DNA of 64,000 nt from Stigmatella aurantiaca DW4/3-1 (lineage in GTDB: Bacteria > Myxococcota > Myxococcia > Myxococcales > Myxococcaceae): contig NC_014623.1 in assembly GCF_000165485.1 (NCBI RefSeq), forward strand, positions 9,194,893 through 9,258,892, given 5' to 3'. Of this stretch, positions 12,063 to 23,147 are shown one piece after another. Under the pieces are notes generated by a model that did not search any database, was not told where the DNA came from, and saw nothing but the letters and a program-made list of their open reading frames with translations. Position numbers and translations under genes: made by a program. Each line of letters starts with the position of its first letter. Position 1 is the stretch's first letter.

Positions 12063-13988
12063 ATGGCTTCCGCGCGAACCTGTGAAACCTGTGGTCTTGA
12101 AGTCCCGCCCGGAATGGGCACGTGCCCTCGGGACGGCACCGCTATCGCTGCGTCTTACGCCGCGCACGACGATGAGGTGACGCAGATCGGCACCCCCAGC
12201 AATGTGTGGGGGGAGGAACCTCCCGCGCGGGGCAAGGGCTCGCCGTTCGCCTGGGGCGAGGAACCCCCTCCGCGCAGCCAGACCCCGTCCTACGCCCAGG
12301 AAGTCCCCCTCTCACCCTCTCCTTGGGGCGAGGAGCCTCCGACGCGCGACGCGCTCATTGGCATGAAGCTGGGCGAGTACGAGCTGCGCCAGCGCATCGG
12401 CGTGGGCGGCATGGGCTTCGTCTATGACGGCATCCAGCCGCTCATCGGCAAGCGCGTCGCCGTGAAGGTGCTGCGGCCCGAGCTGGCGCAGGCGCCCGAG
12501 CAAGTGGCCCGCCTGCTCGCGGAGGCGCGCGCCGTCAACGCCATCCGCCACCGGGGCATCATCGACATCTTCGGCTTCGGGCAGGTGCCCGATGGCCGGC
12601 AGTACATCGTCATGGAGTTCCTGGATGGGCAGCCGCTCGATGCCCACCTGGCCGAGAAGGGCCGGCTGGCGCCCACCGAGGCGCTCTCCATCCTCGATGA
12701 GGTGCTCGCCGCGCTGGGGGCCGCGCACGGCGCGGGCGTCGTCCACCGAGACCTCAAGCCGAGCAACATCTTCCTCGTGCGCGAGCCGGGCAACTCCCGC
12801 TACGTGAAGTTGCTGGACTTCGGCCTCGCCAAGCAGGGCCAGGGCCCCACTGCCCGCACCGCGCAGACGCGCACGGACATGGTGGTGGGCACCCCGGAGT
12901 ACATGGCCCCGGAGCAGGCCCGGGGGCAGGCCGTCGGGCCGATGACGGACCTGTACGCCATGGGTGTCGTCACCTTCGAGATGGTCACCGGCCGGTTGCC
13001 CTTCACGGGCAGCTCCCCGGTGGATCTCTTGATGAAGCACGTGGATGCCCGGCCGCCGCGCCCCTCGGAGTTCGTCCCGGAGCTGCCGCCCGCGCTGGAT
13101 GCCTTCATCCTCCAGATGCTGACGAAGGATCCGGAGGCTCGGCCTGGCTCCGCCGACGCCCTGCGCCAACAACTCCACCGGCTGCGCCGCACCTTGCTGC
13201 GTCCGACGCGCGTCCAAGCCTCCTCGGCCAACGCCATCGCGCCCGCCCGGGCCCTGGCCCCGCTGGCTCCGCCCGAAGTGCCCCTGATTCCCCCCGCGCC
13301 CTTTCAGGCACCGCCGCCGCCGCTCCCCGCCCCCCTCACGAAGCAAGAGGCCCCCACCACCCCCAACGAGACCGTGAAGGTGTCCGACGCGCACGTCCCC
13401 GCGCACAAGACCACGCCCACGGTGCCCAATCCCGCGGTGCTCACGGCCGAGGAGGCCCGGGCCGCGGGGCTGCGTCCGCCTATCCGGAGGATGACCCTCA
13501 TTGGGGTAGGGATCCTGGCTTTGCTGGCAGCGGGCGGGCTGCTGCTGCTCCGGGGCAATGACCCACCAGTTCCTGAGCCCTCCCCTTCGCCTCCCCTGTC
13601 GAACCCCGAGCCGCAGGCGCCCCCTCCCGTGGCGCAGCCGCCGCCCACCGGGCTTCCCGTGGAGTTGGAGCCCCTTCCAGTGCCATCCACGCAGGTACCG
13701 GCGACGGCTCCGTCCCCCGTGGACGACAAACCCACGGCCCGCGTGGAGCCCGCGAAACCGCCTCGCACCAAGCTCTACAGTCCGACGCTGTCTCAACTTC
13801 TCGAGAGCATTGACCTGTTGGAGCGGGAACTGGATTCACGGGCCGCCGCGGGCCAGGACATCTCGATCGCGCGCGGCCAGCTCATGCGGATGCGCGAGAA
13901 GGCGCAAACCGCAGGGAGCGCCGATGCCCGCCGCGAAGTGTCCAAGTCGCTTGAGTTCCTGGAGAAGTCCTACCTGAAGCGGAACTAG
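12063..13988 (+). CDS. Transmembrane Ser/Thr protein kinase with N-terminal zinc ribbon
   Basis: A 641-residue eukaryotic-type kinase that phosphorylates proteins on Ser/Thr. Residues 7-25 form a zinc ribbon (CETCG, then CPRDG). Residues 45-95 are a linker holding three copies of WGEEPP followed by one residue and Arg (Trp49, Trp64, Trp89). The kinase domain spans about 104-375 with all key elements: the Gly loop GVGGMG, Lys135 (VAVKV), HRDLKPSN with Asp230, DFG at 252-254 and the APE motif (MAPEQ). A Pro-rich segment (380-475) leads to one membrane helix (about 478-497) and a short extracytoplasmic part, with a helical C-terminus (SQLLESIDLLERELDSR). The order places the kinase and the zinc ribbon in the cytoplasm. 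Convergent with the next gene. Confidence 0.95.
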   Translation: MASARTCETCGLEVPPGMGTCPRDGTAIAASYAAHDDEVTQIGTPSNVWGEEPPARGKGSPFAWGEEPPPRSQTPSYAQEVPLSPSPWGEEPPTRDALIGMKLGEYELRQRIGVGGMGFVYDGIQPLIGKRVAVKVLRPELAQAPEQVARLLAEARAVNAIRHRGIIDIFGFGQVPDGRQYIVMEFLDGQPLDAHLAEKGRLAPTEALSILDEVLAALGAAHGAGVVHRDLKPSNIFLVREPGNSRYVKLLDFGLAKQGQGPTARTAQTRTDMVVGTPEYMAPEQARGQAVGPMTDLYAMGVVTFEMVTGRLPFTGSSPVDLLMKHVDARPPRPSEFVPELPPALDAFILQMLTKDPEARPGSADALRQQLHRLRRTLLRPTRVQASSANAIAPARALAPLAPPEVPLIPPAPFQAPPPPLPAPLTKQEAPTTPNETVKVSDAHVPAHKTTPTVPNPAVLTAEEARAAGLRPPIRRMTLIGVGILALLAAGGLLLLRGNDPPVPEPSPSPPLSNPEPQAPPPVAQPPPTGLPVELEPLPVPSTQVPATAPSPVDDKPTARVEPAKPPRTKLYSPTLSQLLESIDLLERELDSRAAAGQDISIARGQLMRMREKAQTAGSADARREVSKSLEFLEKSYLKRN

Positions 13989-15533: not shown

Positions 15534-17132
15534 TCAGCGCCGCCCCACCGTGGGGGAGGCGTAGCGCACCTCGAAGAGCGCGGCCGCCGGATCGCTCTCC
15601 TGGTCCCCGACAGGGTTCTGCGGGGTCCAGGCGGCCACGCCCACCCACCGTCCATCCGGACTGAAGCGCACCCGGCGCACGGACCACCCGAAGGCGCGCT
15701 CGCCCCAGGGCTGGGCCTGTCCCTCGGTGAAGACGCGCAGGCGCTTGTCCCACCCCCCCACCGCCAGCGAGCGCCCATCCGGCGAGATGCTCGCGGTGGA
15801 CACCACGCCCCGGGGCCCGGACCATTTCTGGAGGAGGCGGCCCGAGGCGGCGTCCACCAGCGCACCCGCGTTGAAGGGCGCCTGGGGCTCCTCGATGTTC
15901 TTCTTCTCCCGCTCGTACACCGTGCGCGTGCGCTCCGCCTTCTGCTCCGAGAAGGCCACGCCCAGCCGCTGCCCCCGGGCATCCACCGTGACGTCGTTGA
16001 CGTGCCCCTCGAAGGCGTAGTCCGCCCCGGGCGCCAACACCCACCCCTGCATCTGCCCGACGTCCCCAGACGTGCCCTCCTTCGCCGCGAGGATGGCCTC
16101 ACCATGGGCCTCGTCGAAGGAGATCTCGAAGCGTCCGGTGAAGGGCGCGCCCAGCACCCCCTGGGTGCCCGCGGGCACGCACGCGTCACACACGGCGATG
16201 TCCACGCCCTCCACCCGCAGCGTCTTGAAGCGCAGGGACTGTCCCCGCGCCAGCGGCGCCACGCTGTTGCCCAGCGCCGTGGGCACCGTGAGCGTGTCCT
16301 TCAGGAAGGCCACGTCGATGCCCGCCTCGGTGGCTGTCTTGGTATCGAGGAGGATGGCCGGCGTGCGCCCATCCAGCGCGAAGACGGCCTGCGCCTTGCC
16401 ATTCACGGCCCCCCGCACCACCGCGAAGCCGCCCCGCCGCTCGAAGCGCGCCCGCGCTTGAGCCGGCCGCAGCGTCTCCTCGCGGGAGCTCCACACGCGC
16501 ACGTGCTTGTCCCAGCTGCCCGTGTACAGCGTCCCATCCGGCGCGAAGGCCAGCGCGCTCACCGCATCCCCGTGCGCGCGGACCTCGTAGACATAAGCGA
16601 GCTGCGGCACCGACAGGACGGTCAGGAGCCCCTGAGCGCTGCCCACCACGAGGGCGCGGCCCTCCGGGTGGAAGGCCACCGCCGTGAGCGGCTCCTCCAG
16701 CAGGATCTGGCCCTGGGGCGCGCCCGTGGCGCCATCGAAGAGGCGCACCTGGCCATCCCGCCCGGCGGTGGCCAGAAGCGCGCCATCCCCGGAGAAGGCC
16801 ACGGCCTCCAGGTCCTGCTCGTAGCGGTTGATGGCGTTGTCGGAGACGAGCGTGGGAGGGCTGCCCAGCGCCCACAGCGCGAGCTGGTAGGACTTGGCCC
16901 CCAGGTGCGTGTACGCCACGCGCGTGCTGTCCGGCGCGAAGGCGATGGACCAAACGAAGTCCTTGTTGTTGAGCAGGGGCCCCGGCTCCAGCGCCTTCCC
17001 CTCGCCCGAGAGATACCCCCCGGGGGTGGCCGCCAGCCGCGCGGCCGTCTCGGGCGCCAGCACGGGCGCATGGGCACAGCCCACCGCGAGCGTCAGCAAT
17101 CCCCACGGGAGCAGCCGCGCCCAGCGGCTCAT
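15534..17132 (-). CDS. WD40 beta-propeller lipoprotein with inserted retropepsin-like domain
   Basis: A 532-residue lipoprotein (signal peptide ending LAVGC, Cys19). WD40 blades occur on both sides of an insert. Before it: VWSIAFAPDSTRVAY, LEAVAFSGDGALLATAG, AVAFHPEGRALVVGS and SALAFAPDGTLYTGSWDKHVRVW. After it: STASISPDGRSLAVGGWDK and RVRFSPDGRWVGVA. Residues about 240-350 are not WD40. They follow the outline of a retroviral-type aspartic protease (VNGKAQAVFALDGRTPAILLD, then a VLGAPFTGRFEISFD end), with the catalytic Asp-Thr-Gly replaced by Asp-Gly-Arg at 254-256. A CDAC pair lies at 315-318. The start overlaps the stop of the upstream LpoA-like gene (ATGA), so the two are translationally coupled. 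Probably an envelope binding protein. Confidence 0.8.
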   Translation of the reverse strand: MSRWARLLPWGLLTLAVGCAHAPVLAPETAARLAATPGGYLSGEGKALEPGPLLNNKDFVWSIAFAPDSTRVAYTHLGAKSYQLALWALGSPPTLVSDNAINRYEQDLEAVAFSGDGALLATAGRDGQVRLFDGATGAPQGQILLEEPLTAVAFHPEGRALVVGSAQGLLTVLSVPQLAYVYEVRAHGDAVSALAFAPDGTLYTGSWDKHVRVWSSREETLRPAQARARFERRGGFAVVRGAVNGKAQAVFALDGRTPAILLDTKTATEAGIDVAFLKDTLTVPTALGNSVAPLARGQSLRFKTLRVEGVDIAVCDACVPAGTQGVLGAPFTGRFEISFDEAHGEAILAAKEGTSGDVGQMQGWVLAPGADYAFEGHVNDVTVDARGQRLGVAFSEQKAERTRTVYEREKKNIEEPQAPFNAGALVDAASGRLLQKWSGPRGVVSTASISPDGRSLAVGGWDKRLRVFTEGQAQPWGERAFGWSVRRVRFSPDGRWVGVAAWTPQNPVGDQESDPAAALFEVRYASPTVGRR

Positions 17133-19270
17133 GAACCCGAGGCTCCCGCGCCTCCGGTGGCCTCCGGGGGAATCTCCTTCACCCCCTTGCTGTCCACGGA
17201 CAACAGGAAGAGCGGCTTGACCGCCTCCCGCTGGTCATTGAAGGAGGTGCGGCCCGTGGCGCCCTCGAAGTCCTTGAGGGTGGCGAGCGCATCGCGCATC
17301 GCGCCGCGCGTGGCCGGACGGCCCTTCTCGATGATCTGGCGCAGCATCAGCGCCGAGTCGTAGCCGATGGCCTCCAGCAGGCCCGGGTCCCGGCCCGTCT
17401 CCGCCTTGTAGGCGGCCCGGAACGCCTGAACGAACTTGCGCGTGGCCGGACGCTGCGAGTCGATGAAGAAGCCGTCCACGAACACCGAGCAGGTGACGAA
17501 CTTGCCGCCGCGCTCGACGAGTTCCGGCAACCCGCTCTGGCCCTTGGGGCTGTTCCACAGGTTGGTGCCAAAGAGCGTCACCGTCTTCAGGTCCCTCTTG
17601 CCCGTCGTCTTGCGAATGCGCTCCAGGTCGCGCGGATCGCATGCGTTGGTGATGATGTCCTCCACCGCCAGGGCCGGCCCCACGAGGCTCACGCGCTTCC
17701 AGTCGTCCGGGATGAAGATGCCGTCGAAGTCCACCACCGGATCCAGGCCGCTCTTCACCTTCTCAATGGCCTTGCGCCGCCGGAAGGAATCCTGCTCCTG
17801 GGCATTCACCTCGCGCACGCCCTCGATGTAGTCGAGCCGGTCCTCCAAGTAGTAGCGGCCCACGAGCTTCTTCGCCTCGTTGGTGAACGTCGTCTGGTCG
17901 TGCGAGTAGCTCTCCGCGCCCCGCACCACCCCGCCCCGCTTGAGCACCTCGTCCCAGAAGGTGTTGGCCAGCTCCACGCCATACGAGAGGTTCGGGTAGA
18001 GCAGCGCGAAGCGCTTGATGCCCCGCACGTTCAGCGCGTAGTCCGCGATGGCCTCCGCCTGCGCGGAGTTGGTGAGCATGTTGCGGAAGATGTAGGGCCC
18101 GATGCCGGTGATGCCCTCCTGGCGCGCCATCGTCAGCAGCGGAATCTGAAGCTCCTCGGACACCAGCGCCGCGCGGCGGGCCTCGTCCGGCACCAGGGGC
18201 CCCAGCACGGCGATGGCCCCCTCGTCGAAGGCGAGCTGCTCCACGCCCTGTCCCGCCAGGTTCACCTCGCCCTGCGTGTCCTTGACGATGAGTTCGATGT
18301 CGCTGCCGTTGAGCGCCAGCTGCACGCCGCGCAGCACCGCCTCGCCGATGGGCTTGAAGCGGCCCGTCATGGGCAGCAGCACGCCGACGGTCCGCGGACG
18401 CACCTCCACGCGGCGGGTGGAGCGCGCGAGCAACTCCTTGGCCTGGGCGGCGAAGGGGTGGCTGGGGGCCTCCAGGAGGAAGCGGTTGAGCGTCTCCTCC
18501 AGCCGCGTCCAGTCCCGCAGGTGGTAGTAGATGCGCGCCAGCTTGAAGGTGAGGATGGGCCAGGCGGGGTGGCGCGGCGACAACCCTTCGGCCACGCGCG
18601 CGATGTCCACGAAGTCCGCGCGGCCCTCCACCACCTGCTCCAGCCGCTTCGCGGCGGCGGCCTGCTCCTCGGGCGTCTTGGCCTGCTCGGCCAGCTCCAC
18701 CTCGAGGGTCAGCGCCGAGGAGTAGAGGCCCGCCCCTTGCGCGGCGCGGCTGGCGTCCTCGAGCAGCTTCAGGCGCTCCGCGCCCTCCGCGCGCTCCGCG
18801 AGGCTGGAGAGCGTCTGGTACGCATCCCGGTAGGCCCCCACTTCCAACGCGGAGCGGGCCAGCTTGAGCTTGACGTCCTGCGCCTGGGGGTAGATCGGGT
18901 TCTCGAAGAGCAGCTCGTTGAAGGACTTCCGCGCGTTGGCGTAGTCCTCGGCCTCATAGAAGAGGACGCCCGCGCGGTAGAGGGCCTCCTGGCTCGCCGT
19001 GGTCTCCGGGTACGTCTTGCGCACCACGAGGAGGGACTCGGCCGCCCGCTTCCGGTCCGGCTCCCGCGCCGCGGCCTCGATGGCCTGGGCGAGCGCGGCG
19101 TCCGCGGACGGGTCCTTTTTCGCCTCGACCCGGGGCCGCCCCGAGGACGTCCCATCGCCGGAGGGGTCGCCGTCACCCCGCCTCGCGGAGGAGGAGGTCT
19201 TCGGGCAGGCGGTGAGAAACAGCGCCAGCGTCAGCGCCAGGACGCGGCGCGCAAGGGAAAGGACGTCCAT
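17129..19270 (-). CDS. LpoA-like lipoprotein: TPR repeats plus periplasmic ligand-binding domain
   Basis: A 713-residue lipoprotein. The ATG at 19270 is chosen because it opens a lipoprotein signal peptide ending FLTAC (Cys22). Residues 50-290 are helical TPR-type repeats. Residues about 294-713 are a type 1 periplasmic binding fold of the amino-acid-receptor kind (VGVLLPMTGRFKPIGEAVLRG, then AVLGPLVPDEAR and RFALLYPNLSYG). This order, TPR followed by a ligand-binding-type domain on an outer-membrane lipoprotein, is that of LpoA, which activates penicillin-binding protein 1A in E. coli. Deltaproteobacterial homologues are often annotated as penicillin-binding protein activators. It may equally bind small molecules. 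Followed by the coupled WD40 lipoprotein. Confidence 0.8.
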   Translation of the reverse strand: MDVLSLARRVLALTLALFLTACPKTSSSARRGDGDPSGDGTSSGRPRVEAKKDPSADAALAQAIEAAAREPDRKRAAESLLVVRKTYPETTASQEALYRAGVLFYEAEDYANARKSFNELLFENPIYPQAQDVKLKLARSALEVGAYRDAYQTLSSLAERAEGAERLKLLEDASRAAQGAGLYSSALTLEVELAEQAKTPEEQAAAAKRLEQVVEGRADFVDIARVAEGLSPRHPAWPILTFKLARIYYHLRDWTRLEETLNRFLLEAPSHPFAAQAKELLARSTRRVEVRPRTVGVLLPMTGRFKPIGEAVLRGVQLALNGSDIELIVKDTQGEVNLAGQGVEQLAFDEGAIAVLGPLVPDEARRAALVSEELQIPLLTMARQEGITGIGPYIFRNMLTNSAQAEAIADYALNVRGIKRFALLYPNLSYGVELANTFWDEVLKRGGVVRGAESYSHDQTTFTNEAKKLVGRYYLEDRLDYIEGVREVNAQEQDSFRRRKAIEKVKSGLDPVVDFDGIFIPDDWKRVSLVGPALAVEDIITNACDPRDLERIRKTTGKRDLKTVTLFGTNLWNSPKGQSGLPELVERGGKFVTCSVFVDGFFIDSQRPATRKFVQAFRAAYKAETGRDPGLLEAIGYDSALMLRQIIEKGRPATRGAMRDALATLKDFEGATGRTSFNDQREAVKPLFLLSVDSKGVKEIPPEATGGAGASGS

Positions 19271-19425
19271 GGTGGGCGGGTGCATAGCAGCGAGGGTGCG
19301 TCTCCGTCGACAATCGAGCGGCCAGAAGATTCCGCAGCGAACGTCCCGGATATGCACCGCCCGTGCCCCCCGCAAGTCCCCAGGACTTCAGGGGAAGGCA
19401 CACCGGGGGGCGTGGCCCAGGGGCC

Positions 19426-22266
19426 TCACCCCGCCCCTGGGGCCACGGGACGGCGCGGCTGGAGCGCCCGGCGCACCTTGGCCGCCAGCACATCCGGGTT
19501 CACCGGGTAGGCCAGCACGTCGTCGGCCCCGGCATCGAGCCCCTCCTCCACCAGGCCGGGATCCTCCGGCGGGGCCAGAACGAAGATGGGCAGGCCCGCC
19601 GTGTCCGCGGCCTCCCGGAGCGAGCGGGTCAGGGTGGCCCCCGCTCCGTCCGGCAGGTGCGAGGCCACCACCAGCGCCTGAGCCCCCTCGCCCAGCAACT
19701 GCCGGACGCGCGTGACCGAGTCCGCGAGCAGCACCCGCACGCCGTCGGCCAGGAGGCGGGCGTGGAGGGTGGCGGAGCGCTGCGAATCCGGCTCGGCGAG
19801 CACCACCGTGCCCGCCCGGGAATCCCCGAGCACCAGCTCCGAGATCTCCGCAGACAGGGCCTCCATCACCGCGCTGGGCAGCCGGCCTTCCTCCCGCAGC
19901 CGCATGAGCGCGCGCGCCGCCATGTCCGGGGCGGGCGCCGAGGAGCCCATCGCCTCCAGCAGTGCCAACGCCGCCGCGAGCGCCTGGGCCGTCCGGGGCG
20001 CCTGGGGGGTCTGCCCCGCGCCCTCGGCACAGACCTGGATGAGGGCCGCCACCTCGCCGGCCTCCCGTCCAAGCACCGCGCGCACCGACTCGCCCGAGGG
20101 CCTCGCCAGGAACTCCTTGCCCTCCAGGCGCGCCGCGCAGGCCATGGCATACGCCACGGCAGCGCCCTGCTCGGCCTCCGCCGGGCCCGCGCCCAGGCGG
20201 AGCGCCACTTGCCGCGTCAACCGGGCCAGCACCGCCCCCTGTCCCCCCGCGCCTCCCAGCGCGGCCAGCGCCGCCTCCAGCACCCGCGCGTGCAGCCGCG
20301 CCAGCCGTCCCGAGGTCCCCCCTTCTCCCCCCTGCCCCTCCGCCGGGGGAGGGGGCACACGGCTCGCGGAGTCCGGGGACAGCGCCTCGTCCGTCTTCTC
20401 CAGGGCTGCCCCCGGAACCGGCGGGGGGAGGGCAGGCGGAGGCTCCGCCACACTTGCCTTCACCATGCTGGCCCAGTCCATTCCCGCAGGGGGATCTTCC
20501 CCGAGATAGAAGCGGTTGATGGCCCGCCGGATGGCCCCATCGCTGGCGAGCACCCCGCGCACGGCATAGCCCGTGAGGAACTGAAGCTCACTGAGGCGAT
20601 CCAGGTTCTCCGGCTCACGCATGGCGCACACCAGTTCCTTGCCGTGGAGCGTCAAGGGGACCGCCTCGAAGCGCGCGGCATGCTCCAGCGGCAACAAGGA
20701 CAGCAGGGGCGTGGGAACGGGCAGATGGCGAAGCTGGTGCTCGGCGATGAAGGGTATGCCCAGCTGCTCGCTGATGGCGGCCACCACATCCTCGTCCGTG
20801 ACGAGGCCCTCGGCCACCAGCCACTCGCCCAGCTTTCCGCCGTCCCGCCGCTGCCGCTCCAGCATGGCGTGGAGCTGCGCCTCCGAGAGCTTCCCGGCGG
20901 CGATCAGCAAATCCCCGAGCTGACGGCGCACCGTGGGGCGCGCGCGCGGGGGGGCCAACTGCAACACCGGTGTGGCCAGCGGAGGGGCCACGCGGCGTCC
21001 GGTCTCGGCCCCTGGAAGCGCCAGGGGCACCGGCGTGAGCTTGCGGCCGGGCTCCGCGCCCCCCGTGGAGGCCAGGCGCACCGGCTCCGGGCGCGGCTGG
21101 GCCCGGATGGCCACGGTCCTCGCCCCGGCCAGCAGGCTCACCCCGGGCGTGCCGGGAATGCTCCCCATCGGCGGCGTGGTGGGGCGGTGCGGCTCCAGCC
21201 GCTGCACCGGGCGCCAAGGCCCGGTCCGGATGGGCTCCACGACGCCCCCCGCCCCCTCGGCGCCGAGCCGGATCTCCTCGCCCCGGAACTCCGCGGACGG
21301 CCCCGCCTCCAGGGGAGAGCGCCGTCCCGGCAGGCAGCGCGCGAAGAGCCGGGCCACGTCCTGAGGCCCCACACGCAGCCGGTGCTCGAAGAGGAAGTCT
21401 TGCAGCGCATCCGCCATGTCCCGGGCGCGCTGGAAGCGGGCCGTGGGCTCCTGCGCCAGCGCCCGGGTGATGATGCTCCACAGCGGCGCGGGCACCCCGG
21501 GGAGCGGATCCATCGCCTTGACATCGAAGGACGAGATGCTGCGCAGCACCCGGAAGTAGTCCGGTCCCGAGAAGAGCTGCTGGCCCGAGAGCAACTCGTA
21601 GAGCAGCAGCCCCAGCAGGAAGAGATCCGCGCGCTGGTCCACCGCGACGCCGCGCACCTGCTCCGGGGCCAGGTAGCCCACCTTGCCCTTGACCACCCCC
21701 GCCTGGGTGCCGCTCTGGACATTGGCCGCCTTGGCGATGCCGAAGTCCGCGAGCTTCACTTCGCCCGCGACGGAGATCATCACGTTGGACGGGTTGATGT
21801 CGCGGTGGATGATGTTGAGGGGCCGCCCCACCGCATCCAGCTTGTCATGGGCATAGGCGAGCCCTTCGGCCACCTGCTGGACGATGAAGACCCCCTCCCG
21901 CAGGCCCATGGACATGGGCACGCCGGCCGCGGCGCGCTGGAGCGTGCGGAGGTTCTCTCCATCCACGAATTCCATCACCATGTAGTACTGGCCGCCCACC
22001 TCGCCGAGATCAAACACTTGCAGGACATTGGCGTGCTGCAACGAAACGGTGAGCTTGGCCTCGCGCAGGAACAGCTCCACGAACTCGCGATCCTTCGCCA
22101 AGGACGGCAGCACGCGCTTGACGGCCACGGGCTTCTCGAACCCCTCTGCGCCGAAGACCTTCGCCAGGAAGACCTCCGCCATGCCCCCCGAAGCCAGCCG
22201 TCGGACCAGTCGATAAACGCCCACGGCGCCTCCCCCAGACCGGATGTAGAGAGCGTTGATGTGCAT
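19426..22266 (-). CDS. Ser/Thr kinase fused to MshEN (c-di-GMP-type), HD-like and degenerate receiver domains
   Basis: A 946-residue multidomain signalling protein. Kinase domain, residues 16-295: ASGGMA loop, Lys50 (VAVK), HRDINPSN (154-161), DFG (174-176) and LAPEQ are all intact. Residues 320-445 are Pro/Arg-rich linker. Residues 446-505 match the MshEN signature, two adjacent copies of LGxxLxxxGxxxxxxL (QLGDLLIAAGKLSEAQL and KLGEWLVAEGLVTDEDV), the cyclic-di-GMP-binding motif of the secretion ATPase MshE. The rest of that N-domain continues to about 590. Residues 655-810 are helical and recall an HD domain without metal ligands. Residues 818-935 are receiver-like, but the phosphorylated Asp is Ala868 and the conserved Lys is Tyr920 (AYPVNPD). 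Expected in the cytoplasm. c-di-GMP control of the kinase is inferred. Confidence 0.85.
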   Translation of the reverse strand: MHINALYIRSGGGAVGVYRLVRRLASGGMAEVFLAKVFGAEGFEKPVAVKRVLPSLAKDREFVELFLREAKLTVSLQHANVLQVFDLGEVGGQYYMVMEFVDGENLRTLQRAAAGVPMSMGLREGVFIVQQVAEGLAYAHDKLDAVGRPLNIIHRDINPSNVMISVAGEVKLADFGIAKAANVQSGTQAGVVKGKVGYLAPEQVRGVAVDQRADLFLLGLLLYELLSGQQLFSGPDYFRVLRSISSFDVKAMDPLPGVPAPLWSIITRALAQEPTARFQRARDMADALQDFLFEHRLRVGPQDVARLFARCLPGRRSPLEAGPSAEFRGEEIRLGAEGAGGVVEPIRTGPWRPVQRLEPHRPTTPPMGSIPGTPGVSLLAGARTVAIRAQPRPEPVRLASTGGAEPGRKLTPVPLALPGAETGRRVAPPLATPVLQLAPPRARPTVRRQLGDLLIAAGKLSEAQLHAMLERQRRDGGKLGEWLVAEGLVTDEDVVAAISEQLGIPFIAEHQLRHLPVPTPLLSLLPLEHAARFEAVPLTLHGKELVCAMREPENLDRLSELQFLTGYAVRGVLASDGAIRRAINRFYLGEDPPAGMDWASMVKASVAEPPPALPPPVPGAALEKTDEALSPDSASRVPPPPAEGQGGEGGTSGRLARLHARVLEAALAALGGAGGQGAVLARLTRQVALRLGAGPAEAEQGAAVAYAMACAARLEGKEFLARPSGESVRAVLGREAGEVAALIQVCAEGAGQTPQAPRTAQALAAALALLEAMGSSAPAPDMAARALMRLREEGRLPSAVMEALSAEISELVLGDSRAGTVVLAEPDSQRSATLHARLLADGVRVLLADSVTRVRQLLGEGAQALVVASHLPDGAGATLTRSLREAADTAGLPIFVLAPPEDPGLVEEGLDAGADDVLAYPVNPDVLAAKVRRALQPRRPVAPGAG

Positions 22267-22460: not shown

Positions 22461-23147
22461 CTAGAAAACCCCCGCCAGCCCTCCGACGAGTCCGCCGGCG
22501 CGGTCCACGTGGATCAGCGGCACCACGCGCATGCCGGAGGCTGCCAGGGCCGCGCTCCGAAGCGCGGTCTGGTGTGACCACTCATAGGCCACCATCCCGC
22601 CGATCAGGGGACACAAGGGGGCAAGCACCCCGAGCGGGGGAACCAAGAACGTGAGCGGCGCGGCGAGCAGGCCCAGCAGGACGCCTCCCAGCACGGGCCA
22701 GAACCTCCCCTGGCCCCCCAGCCAGCTGCCCCCCGCCACGATGCCCACAGCCGAGCCGAGGGGAATCCCCGCGACCAGGAAGAAGACCCCCAGGCCCACG
22801 CTCGCGTCGTGCTCGCGGTCCCCTTGGAGGGAGGTCATCAGCAGGAGCGACCCGGGGAGAAGCCCCACCCCCGTGCCCAGCACGCCCCCCAGCGCCTCCG
22901 CCGCGAGCCTCGGGAACCGGCCCGGGGGGGGAGGGACATACCGGGCGCGGGGAATCAGCTCGCCCCGGGGGCGGGAGGGATGCACCGAGGGCGCGGCTTC
23001 AGCCGCGTCCCCCCCGGGAACCAGGGGCGGGGCCGGCACGAGGGGCGGGGGCGGCAAGGGCCCCGCGGCGGGCGCCACCTCCTGGGCCCATCCCGTCAGA
23101 GGCCCTCCCAGGCAGAGCAGCACCAGCAGGAAGCGCGGGCAGAACAT
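22461..23147 (-). CDS. Membrane protein with signal peptide, function unknown
   Basis: A 228-residue protein. The ATG at 23147 opens a signal peptide (FLLVLLCLGGPLTGWAQ); a longer frame from 23858 overlaps dnaJ and is a shadow. A Pro-rich spacer (25-80) is followed by about four hydrophobic segments between residues 85 and 195 with Gly-rich packing (GGVLGTGVGLLPGSLLL, VFFLVAGIPLGSAVGIVAGG). Such Gly-rich segments occur in small myxobacterial envelope proteins of unknown role. It starts 41 bases after the dnaJ stop on the same strand and may be read through from it. Confidence 0.65.
   Translation of the reverse strand: MFCPRFLLVLLCLGGPLTGWAQEVAPAAGPLPPPPLVPAPPLVPGGDAAEAAPSVHPSRPRGELIPRARYVPPPPGRFPRLAAEALGGVLGTGVGLLPGSLLLMTSLQGDREHDASVGLGVFFLVAGIPLGSAVGIVAGGSWLGGQGRFWPVLGGVLLGLLAAPLTFLVPPLGVLAPLCPLIGGMVAYEWSHQTALRSAALAASGMRVVPLIHVDRAGGLVGGLAGVF

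Follow-up and report, generated by a model that had tools for sequence, protein, structure and literature searches.

The MshEN domain binds cyclic di-GMP (c-di-GMP) in secretion ATPases through two copies of a motif given as RLGxx(L/V/I)(L/V/I)xxG(L/V/I)(L/V/I)xxxxLxxxLxxQ, and Wang et al. 2016 (PMC5013675; this and the other papers are cited here from extracts of their text) name Ser/Thr protein kinases, receiver domains and HD-GYP domains among its partners. Myxococcus xanthus has 17 MshEN proteins, and one of them, MXAN_2807, contains both HD-GYP and MshEN (2022 study, PMC8844925). Since joins between a kinase and MshEN were already mentioned by Wang et al. 2016, a fusion of the two is not a first. 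What is newly described here is one kinase-MshEN family, with its dead phosphodiesterase-like part and the repeated loss of its pieces. The family is represented by a protein encoded on the minus strand (19426..22266) of a 64,000-nucleotide stretch of DNA from the soil bacterium Stigmatella aurantiaca DW4/3-1 (contig NC_014623.1, positions 9,194,893 to 9,258,892), the whole of which was analysed and is hereafter called the window. On balance we lean towards seeing it as a c-di-GMP-responsive Ser/Thr kinase whose tail, composed of dead response-regulator-like domains, would act as an interaction surface.

A Ser/Thr kinase joined to a c-di-GMP motif domain

The open reading frame (ORF), whose coordinates had been given correctly by a sequence-only reading made without database searches, encodes 946 aa from ATG 22266. 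A GGAGG lies directly 5' of GTG 22224 (residue 15), and this GTG is probably the true start, because the similarity of relatives begins at about residue 15 of the alignment; the protein would then have 932 aa. A scan of related genome contigs yielded 24 loci, including nine full-length relatives from Hyalangium (2), Archangium (2), Myxococcus (2), Pyxidicoccus (2) and one further member of the Myxococcaceae, and Pfam matches to Pkinase, MshEN and Response_reg were common to all ten members of this first alignment. A second search, with residues 652-936 against 58 genomes of the window's family (at most 42 candidates scored per genome), found 24 genomes with matches at E 1e-8, some of these matches being to the receiver only, and 20 loci from it were added to reach 30 aligned sequences including the window protein. 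Two loci with only the kinase end at contig ends (L026 and L029) were excluded from the final alignment, L030-L042, which match the kinase part or less, were judged to belong to other families, and the orthologues L099, L101-L103, L110 (with an internal stop) and L113 stand outside the alignment together with the receiver-only rows. The counts of 26/26 and 23/23 used below thus apply to the 30 aligned sequences rather than to every relative. The relatives form two main groups, and the Stigmatella genome holds one member of each, the second being a paralogue of 1040 aa (L003/L131) encoded at about 5465.6-5468.7 kb of the genome.

The N-terminal domain (residues 18-290; 21397..22215, minus strand, as are all features of this protein) is, by Pfam and alignment, a Hanks-type Ser/Thr kinase (Pkinase, residues 18-279, E 3.4e-36). 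It has K50, E69, H154-R155-D156, N161, D174-F175-G176, E202, D214 and R277, and these 12 positions, which do not include the catalytic-loop Lys, are intact in 26/26 MshEN-bearing aligned sequences. The loop itself reads HRDINPSN and departs from the HRDxKxxN pattern, with Asn158 at the usual Lys; Asn occupies this position in all 26 sequences. The sequence-only reading had called the kinase catalytically complete, which holds for Lys50, Glu69, HRD, Asn161, DFG and Glu202 and fails at the loop Lys. A pattern search recognised the loop in 25 of the genome's 30 best-scoring kinases, always with Lys, and in 17 of 20 mid-scoring ones (L073-L092), of which 14 lack Lys (11 Ser, 2 Thr and 1 Asn). Given these 14 of 17, the Asn158 kinase belongs to a type common in the genome, which encodes at least 150 kinase domains and gives 18 MshEN profile matches; of the 18 ORFs with such a match, only two also encode a kinase.

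Two side observations concern kinases other than this one. The Lys-less loops of the mid-scoring kinases (HRDxSPxN and similar) form a large type deserving separate study, and the window contains a second kinase domain (12378-13172, plus strand) of the ordinary HRDLKPSN type.

A Pro/Arg-rich linker of low model confidence, delimited by model and alignment (residues 291-446; 20929..21396), separates the kinase from an MshEN domain made of a part with two 24-residue c-di-GMP motifs (MshEN_N, residues 449-501; 20764..20922) and an alpha/beta lobe (MshEN_C, residues 502-591; 20494..20763). This domain had been claimed from the letters alone, with a profile search and a fold check proposed as tests, and both bear the claim out. 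Pfam PF05157 matches residues 503-591 strongly (E 1.3e-17; 64 bits, threshold 23.1), the NCBIfam c-di-GMP motif domain NF053729 matches residues 449-501 (E 1e-15; 57.3 bits, threshold 38), and residues 433-612 compared with PDB sequences give PilF and PilB as the best matches, followed by MshE (5htl, E 6e-14). The AlphaFold model of residues 450-590, with blocks at a predicted local distance difference test (pLDDT) score of 76-88, shows the paired helical motif region as four helices and then an alpha/beta lobe, which is the layout described for MshEN and counts for this identity.

Motif I reads QLGDLLIAAGKLSEAQLHAMLERQ and is followed, after a five-residue spacer, by motif II, KLGEWLVAEGLVTDEDVVAAISEQ. 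The two LGxxLxxxGxxxxxxL units of the sequence-only reading are both present, except that the second has V for the last L. The motif contact residues named in PMC5013675 are kept, save for Arg replaced by Gln in motif I and, in motif II, Arg by Lys and two Leu by Val and Ile. Across the 26 MshEN-bearing sequences, G451, G480, Q472, Q501 and L469 are invariant, so that position 3 is always Gly and position 24 always Gln in both motifs, and residue 478, the first of motif II (Lys in the window protein), is always Lys or Arg. Mean identity is 0.87 at the ten contact positions and 0.64 at the remaining 43 positions of the motif region, and 0.25% of random ten-position sets attain the former value. 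This pattern agrees with what is published on PilF of Thermus. Its GSPII-B domain, whose motifs begin with Lys and Leu, binds c-di-GMP at 6 nM (PMC11731258), so that K478 is no obstacle to binding and Q449 not necessarily one. In its GSPII-A domain, binding is restored once both motifs end in Gln and motif II opens with Arg, and high affinity further needs the position-3 Gly, other obstacles having been removed beforehand (PMC12002112). The minimal determinants that emerge from these extracts have their counterparts in Q472, Q501, K478, G451 and G480. Judged by these residues, the window MshEN very probably senses c-di-GMP.

The C-terminal tail and the loss of modules among relatives

A low-complexity stretch recognised in the alignment (residues 592-649; 20320..20493) leads to a helical domain (residues 650-815; 19822..20319), described earlier as an HD-like region. 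This description stands by fold and not by sequence. We found no Pfam match for the helical domain of the window protein, none of the 30 members matched an HD family in Pfam at E up to 1, and comparing profiles of the domain and of five HD domains from the Stigmatella genome gave no significant result; with neither analysis giving HD support, an assignment to HD-GYP by sequence was rejected. Predicted alone from the 30 sequences, the domain reaches pLDDT 84.5. Foldseek returned nothing below E 0.001 (best E 0.1), and the HD-GYP domain of DvhD occupies its top four rows (E 0.10-0.22, probability 0.98-1.00). Structural re-alignment gave a best Z of 11.6 (3.6 Å over 155 residues), in a range below about 13 where, as the tool cautions, chance arrangement may account for the score in helical models. 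Its ranks 1-10 (DvhD, Bd1817, V-cGAP3, PA4781 and PgpH entries; Z 11.6 to 8.9, 144-160 of 166 residues) are all HD-GYP or related HD phosphodiesterases, and ranks 11-32 comprise many HD-type hydrolases, by title or by family, together with glycyl-tRNA synthetases and others. Because a single superfamily fills the top ranks across the whole domain, we accept an HD-GYP-like fold. No His or Asp is invariant in the domain (commonest His column 16/30, commonest Asp column 20/30), and seven of the 30 sequences have no His in it at all. The fold prediction and these residues together point to a degenerate, inactive HD-GYP-like domain lacking conserved His.

The protein ends in a receiver-like fold (residues 817-937; 19456..19818), detected by fold, alignment and a Response_reg match below the curated Pfam cut-off (residues 831-931, E 8.9e-6, 26.3 bits against 30.2). 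The model of residues 817-939 superposes on receivers with Z 18.4-21.1 over 112-130 residues among the best 50 matches, in which ranks 1 and 43 carry unrelated titles. The acidic pocket has E825-P826, and A868, A898 and Y920 replace the phospho-Asp, the Thr and the Lys, in agreement with the earlier description of a dead receiver with Ala868 and Tyr920. Among the 23 aligned sequences that retain the domain, the phospho-Asp site is Ala in 15, Glu in five, Gly in two and Ser in one, never Asp, and the site of the conserved Lys is Tyr in 12 and Arg in 11, never Lys; we call the domain a pseudo-receiver because both residues are absent from 23/23. In the second group, Glu occupies the phospho-Asp site of L023, L131-L133 and L135, where it could possibly act as a permanent phospho-mimic.

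Most aligned relatives (20/30) carry a further module of about 92 aa between MshEN and the helical domain, at the site of the low-complexity stretch, and it is absent in the other 10. The window protein, L123 and L124 are without it and group together with support 100/100, while L126 of the same genus has it; read from the alignment, the module kept by most aligned relatives has been lost from the window protein. Response_reg matches this module in only one of 10 members (E 0.0022), and its profile comparison with the C-terminal receiver gives E 0.01 and a probability of 4%. In view of these weak matches, we did not adopt its identification as a true receiver and use the term receiver-like. 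The pseudo-receiver is missing from 7/30 sequences. L136-L138 are without both receivers, and their loss in L136/L138 and in L137 may represent one or two events. L139-L142 lack MshEN as well as both receivers, although the helical domain is kept in all four. Three of them have Glu for the active-site Lys and lack the HRD Asp, all four have DTG for DFG, and the front part of L142 is out of frame; the four sequences of 30 that lack MshEN have therefore lost kinase catalytic residues too. As L139-L142 form a single clade, this joint loss counts as one event, and we regard them, from their residues, as a pseudokinase clade.

Selection was estimated as the ratio of nonsynonymous to synonymous substitution rates (dN/dS) by a simple pairwise method, in which pairs share sequences, are not independent and have wide intervals; in the window's clade, three proteins account for all three pairs. 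In this clade, kinase and MshEN have the lowest values of the four domains measured (0.06-0.11 each), followed by the pseudo-receiver (0.11, 0.29 and 0.17) and the helical domain (0.29, 0.56 and 0.61). In 17 pairs retaining the extra module, the helical domain ranges from 0.08 to 0.42, and in the L136/L138 pair it reaches 0.70, next to 0.42 for the kinase and 0.49 for MshEN. These values are suggestive of relaxed constraint on the helical domain in proteins that lack receivers.

Competing explanations

From these data we infer a mechanism in which c-di-GMP bound to MshEN would set the activity or the partner choice of the Ser/Thr kinase. The pseudo-HD-GYP and the pseudo-receiver of the C-terminal part may be remnants of response-regulator-like modules; by their residues they are predicted neither to hydrolyse c-di-GMP nor to accept phosphate, and they would probably offer a surface for interaction or dimerisation. 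The docking role that the sequence-only reading gave to the pseudo-receiver would fit the constraint on this domain in the window's clade. Gating of the kinase by c-di-GMP, as proposed in that reading, is plausible, and conservation of the site together with the published determinants gives it stronger support than it had there. We hold more tentatively the specific version in which the kinase is gated directly and the protein combines a live MshEN with the remains of a response regulator that was a c-di-GMP phosphodiesterase, now reduced to the receiver-like module, the pseudo-HD-GYP and the pseudo-receiver; lineages would have trimmed these dead modules in different ways, and in one lineage a copy would have become a pseudokinase.

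Several observations weigh against such control. Motif I opens with Q449 (K, P, Q or R in relatives) and has K459 at position 11, where the consensus is hydrophobic. The relaxed search motif of Wang et al. is fitted by motif II but missed by motif I at two positions, and the contact Asp of the MshE C-lobe appears, when aligned via PilB, to correspond to E551. Nine core positions of the motif region also have a mean identity of 0.76, and contact residues are partly structural, so that conservation of the contact positions is support, short of proof. The AlphaFold model of the kinase is poor (pLDDT mostly below 50, from 10 similar sequences) and its contact with MshEN is unreadable. Constraint on kinase and MshEN is weaker in the short forms L136/L138, and the joint loss of MshEN and kinase residues in L139-L142 fits the simple decay of a copy as well. 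Finally, MshEN-type domains that do not bind c-di-GMP are on record in XpsE (PMC5013675) and PilF GSPII-A (PMC12002112). With these precedents and the two deviations of motif I in mind, it could be argued that the window MshEN has little or no affinity for c-di-GMP and is a structural docking module, as in XpsE, leaving the kinase outside c-di-GMP control. We consider this unlikely, though it is the alternative to which we give most weight: XpsE has lost several key residues, whereas here the position-3 Gly, the position-24 Gln and the Lys or Arg opening motif II are held by every MshEN-bearing sequence.

The catalytic loop raises a different doubt, namely that the kinase, with Asn158 for Lys, is weak or inactive and the protein a c-di-GMP-responsive scaffold. 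The constancy of this Asn alongside MshEN, and the Lys in every recognised loop of the best-scoring kinases, agree with it, but Lys-less loops are common in the genome, the remaining kinase positions checked are kept, dN/dS shows constraint on the kinase within the window's clade and the pseudokinase copies L139-L142 look quite different, so that we find it rather improbable. It would surprise us more if the C-terminal half were a functionless, decaying remnant, with kinase and MshEN alone of importance. Such decay would account for the repeated absence of the receiver-like module and the pseudo-receiver and for the relaxed look of the helical domain in the window's clade and in L136/L138; against it, the pseudo-receiver of the window's clade is constrained and the helical domain is retained even in the four pseudokinase copies.

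If the c-di-GMP-responsive kinase is the correct reading, second-messenger signalling would feed eukaryote-type phosphorylation within one chain. To our knowledge, no experiment has established that c-di-GMP directly controls a Ser/Thr kinase, and within our partial coverage of the open-licence literature we found no experimental report on the function of a kinase-MshEN fusion or on a direct link from c-di-GMP to Ser/Thr phosphorylation. With the predicted sensor and the kinase in one chain, the link is testable with purified protein, and relatives with or without MshEN, and with or without each dead module, provide natural controls.

Genomic neighbourhood and comparison with known systems

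The kinase gene is flanked by an LppC/LpoA-like lipoprotein gene (17129-19375, minus strand), whose product combines a periplasmic-binding domain with weak TPR matches. The order DnaJ, kinase, LppC-like lipoprotein and WD40 protein on one strand was found in 9/25 loci examined (L019, L020, L123-L126, L129, L136 and L138), some of the 25 being incomplete in length. The adjacency of the lipoprotein in these nine loci is confined to the window's orthologue group, and none of the DnaJ, LppC-like and WD40 neighbours was found beside second-group members in the 25 loci. In the window, an ORF with a signal-peptide-like start and no Pfam match (22461-23087, minus strand) lies between DnaJ and kinase, and in the nearest relatives, L123 and L124, these two frames are within about 200 bases of each other. 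A transglycosylase-like ORF occurs further along in the window neighbourhood, and no pili or exopolysaccharide genes were found among the nine neighbouring ORFs scanned. A role of the kinase at the cell envelope is no more than possible.

The MshEN-kinases of Wang et al. 2016 show the same joining and are known there by mention alone, with no function given in the extracts of that text. The N-terminal GSPII domains of MshE, PilB and PilF are, by profile and PDB sequence matches, the same two-motif c-di-GMP domain, but the window MshEN is joined to a kinase instead of a traffic ATPase, and its motif I opens with Gln. MXAN_2807 (PMC8844925) and L017 of the window's own genome resemble the window protein in joining MshEN to an HD domain. 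L017 differs in that its HD domain matches Pfam HD_5 and keeps the HD pair, with DUF4388 after it and no kinase in the stretch examined. For the other end of the protein, one parallel is fungal Rim15, a kinase with a C-terminal pseudo-receiver without the Asp, which in Ascomycota is replaced by Glu as in 5/23 sequences here (PMC12632262). The same source, in its extracts, describes the working of pseudo-receivers outside plants as little understood, and in the present protein a pseudo-receiver under constraint sits on a kinase. A myxobacterial pseudo-receiver is provided by FrzS of M. xanthus, whose structures 2nt3 and 2i6f are among the fold matches of the window receiver. Rim15 is eukaryotic and has no c-di-GMP domain, and we know of no common origin with the window kinase; FrzS, a motility protein that contains a coiled-coil domain, is not a kinase, unlike the window protein.

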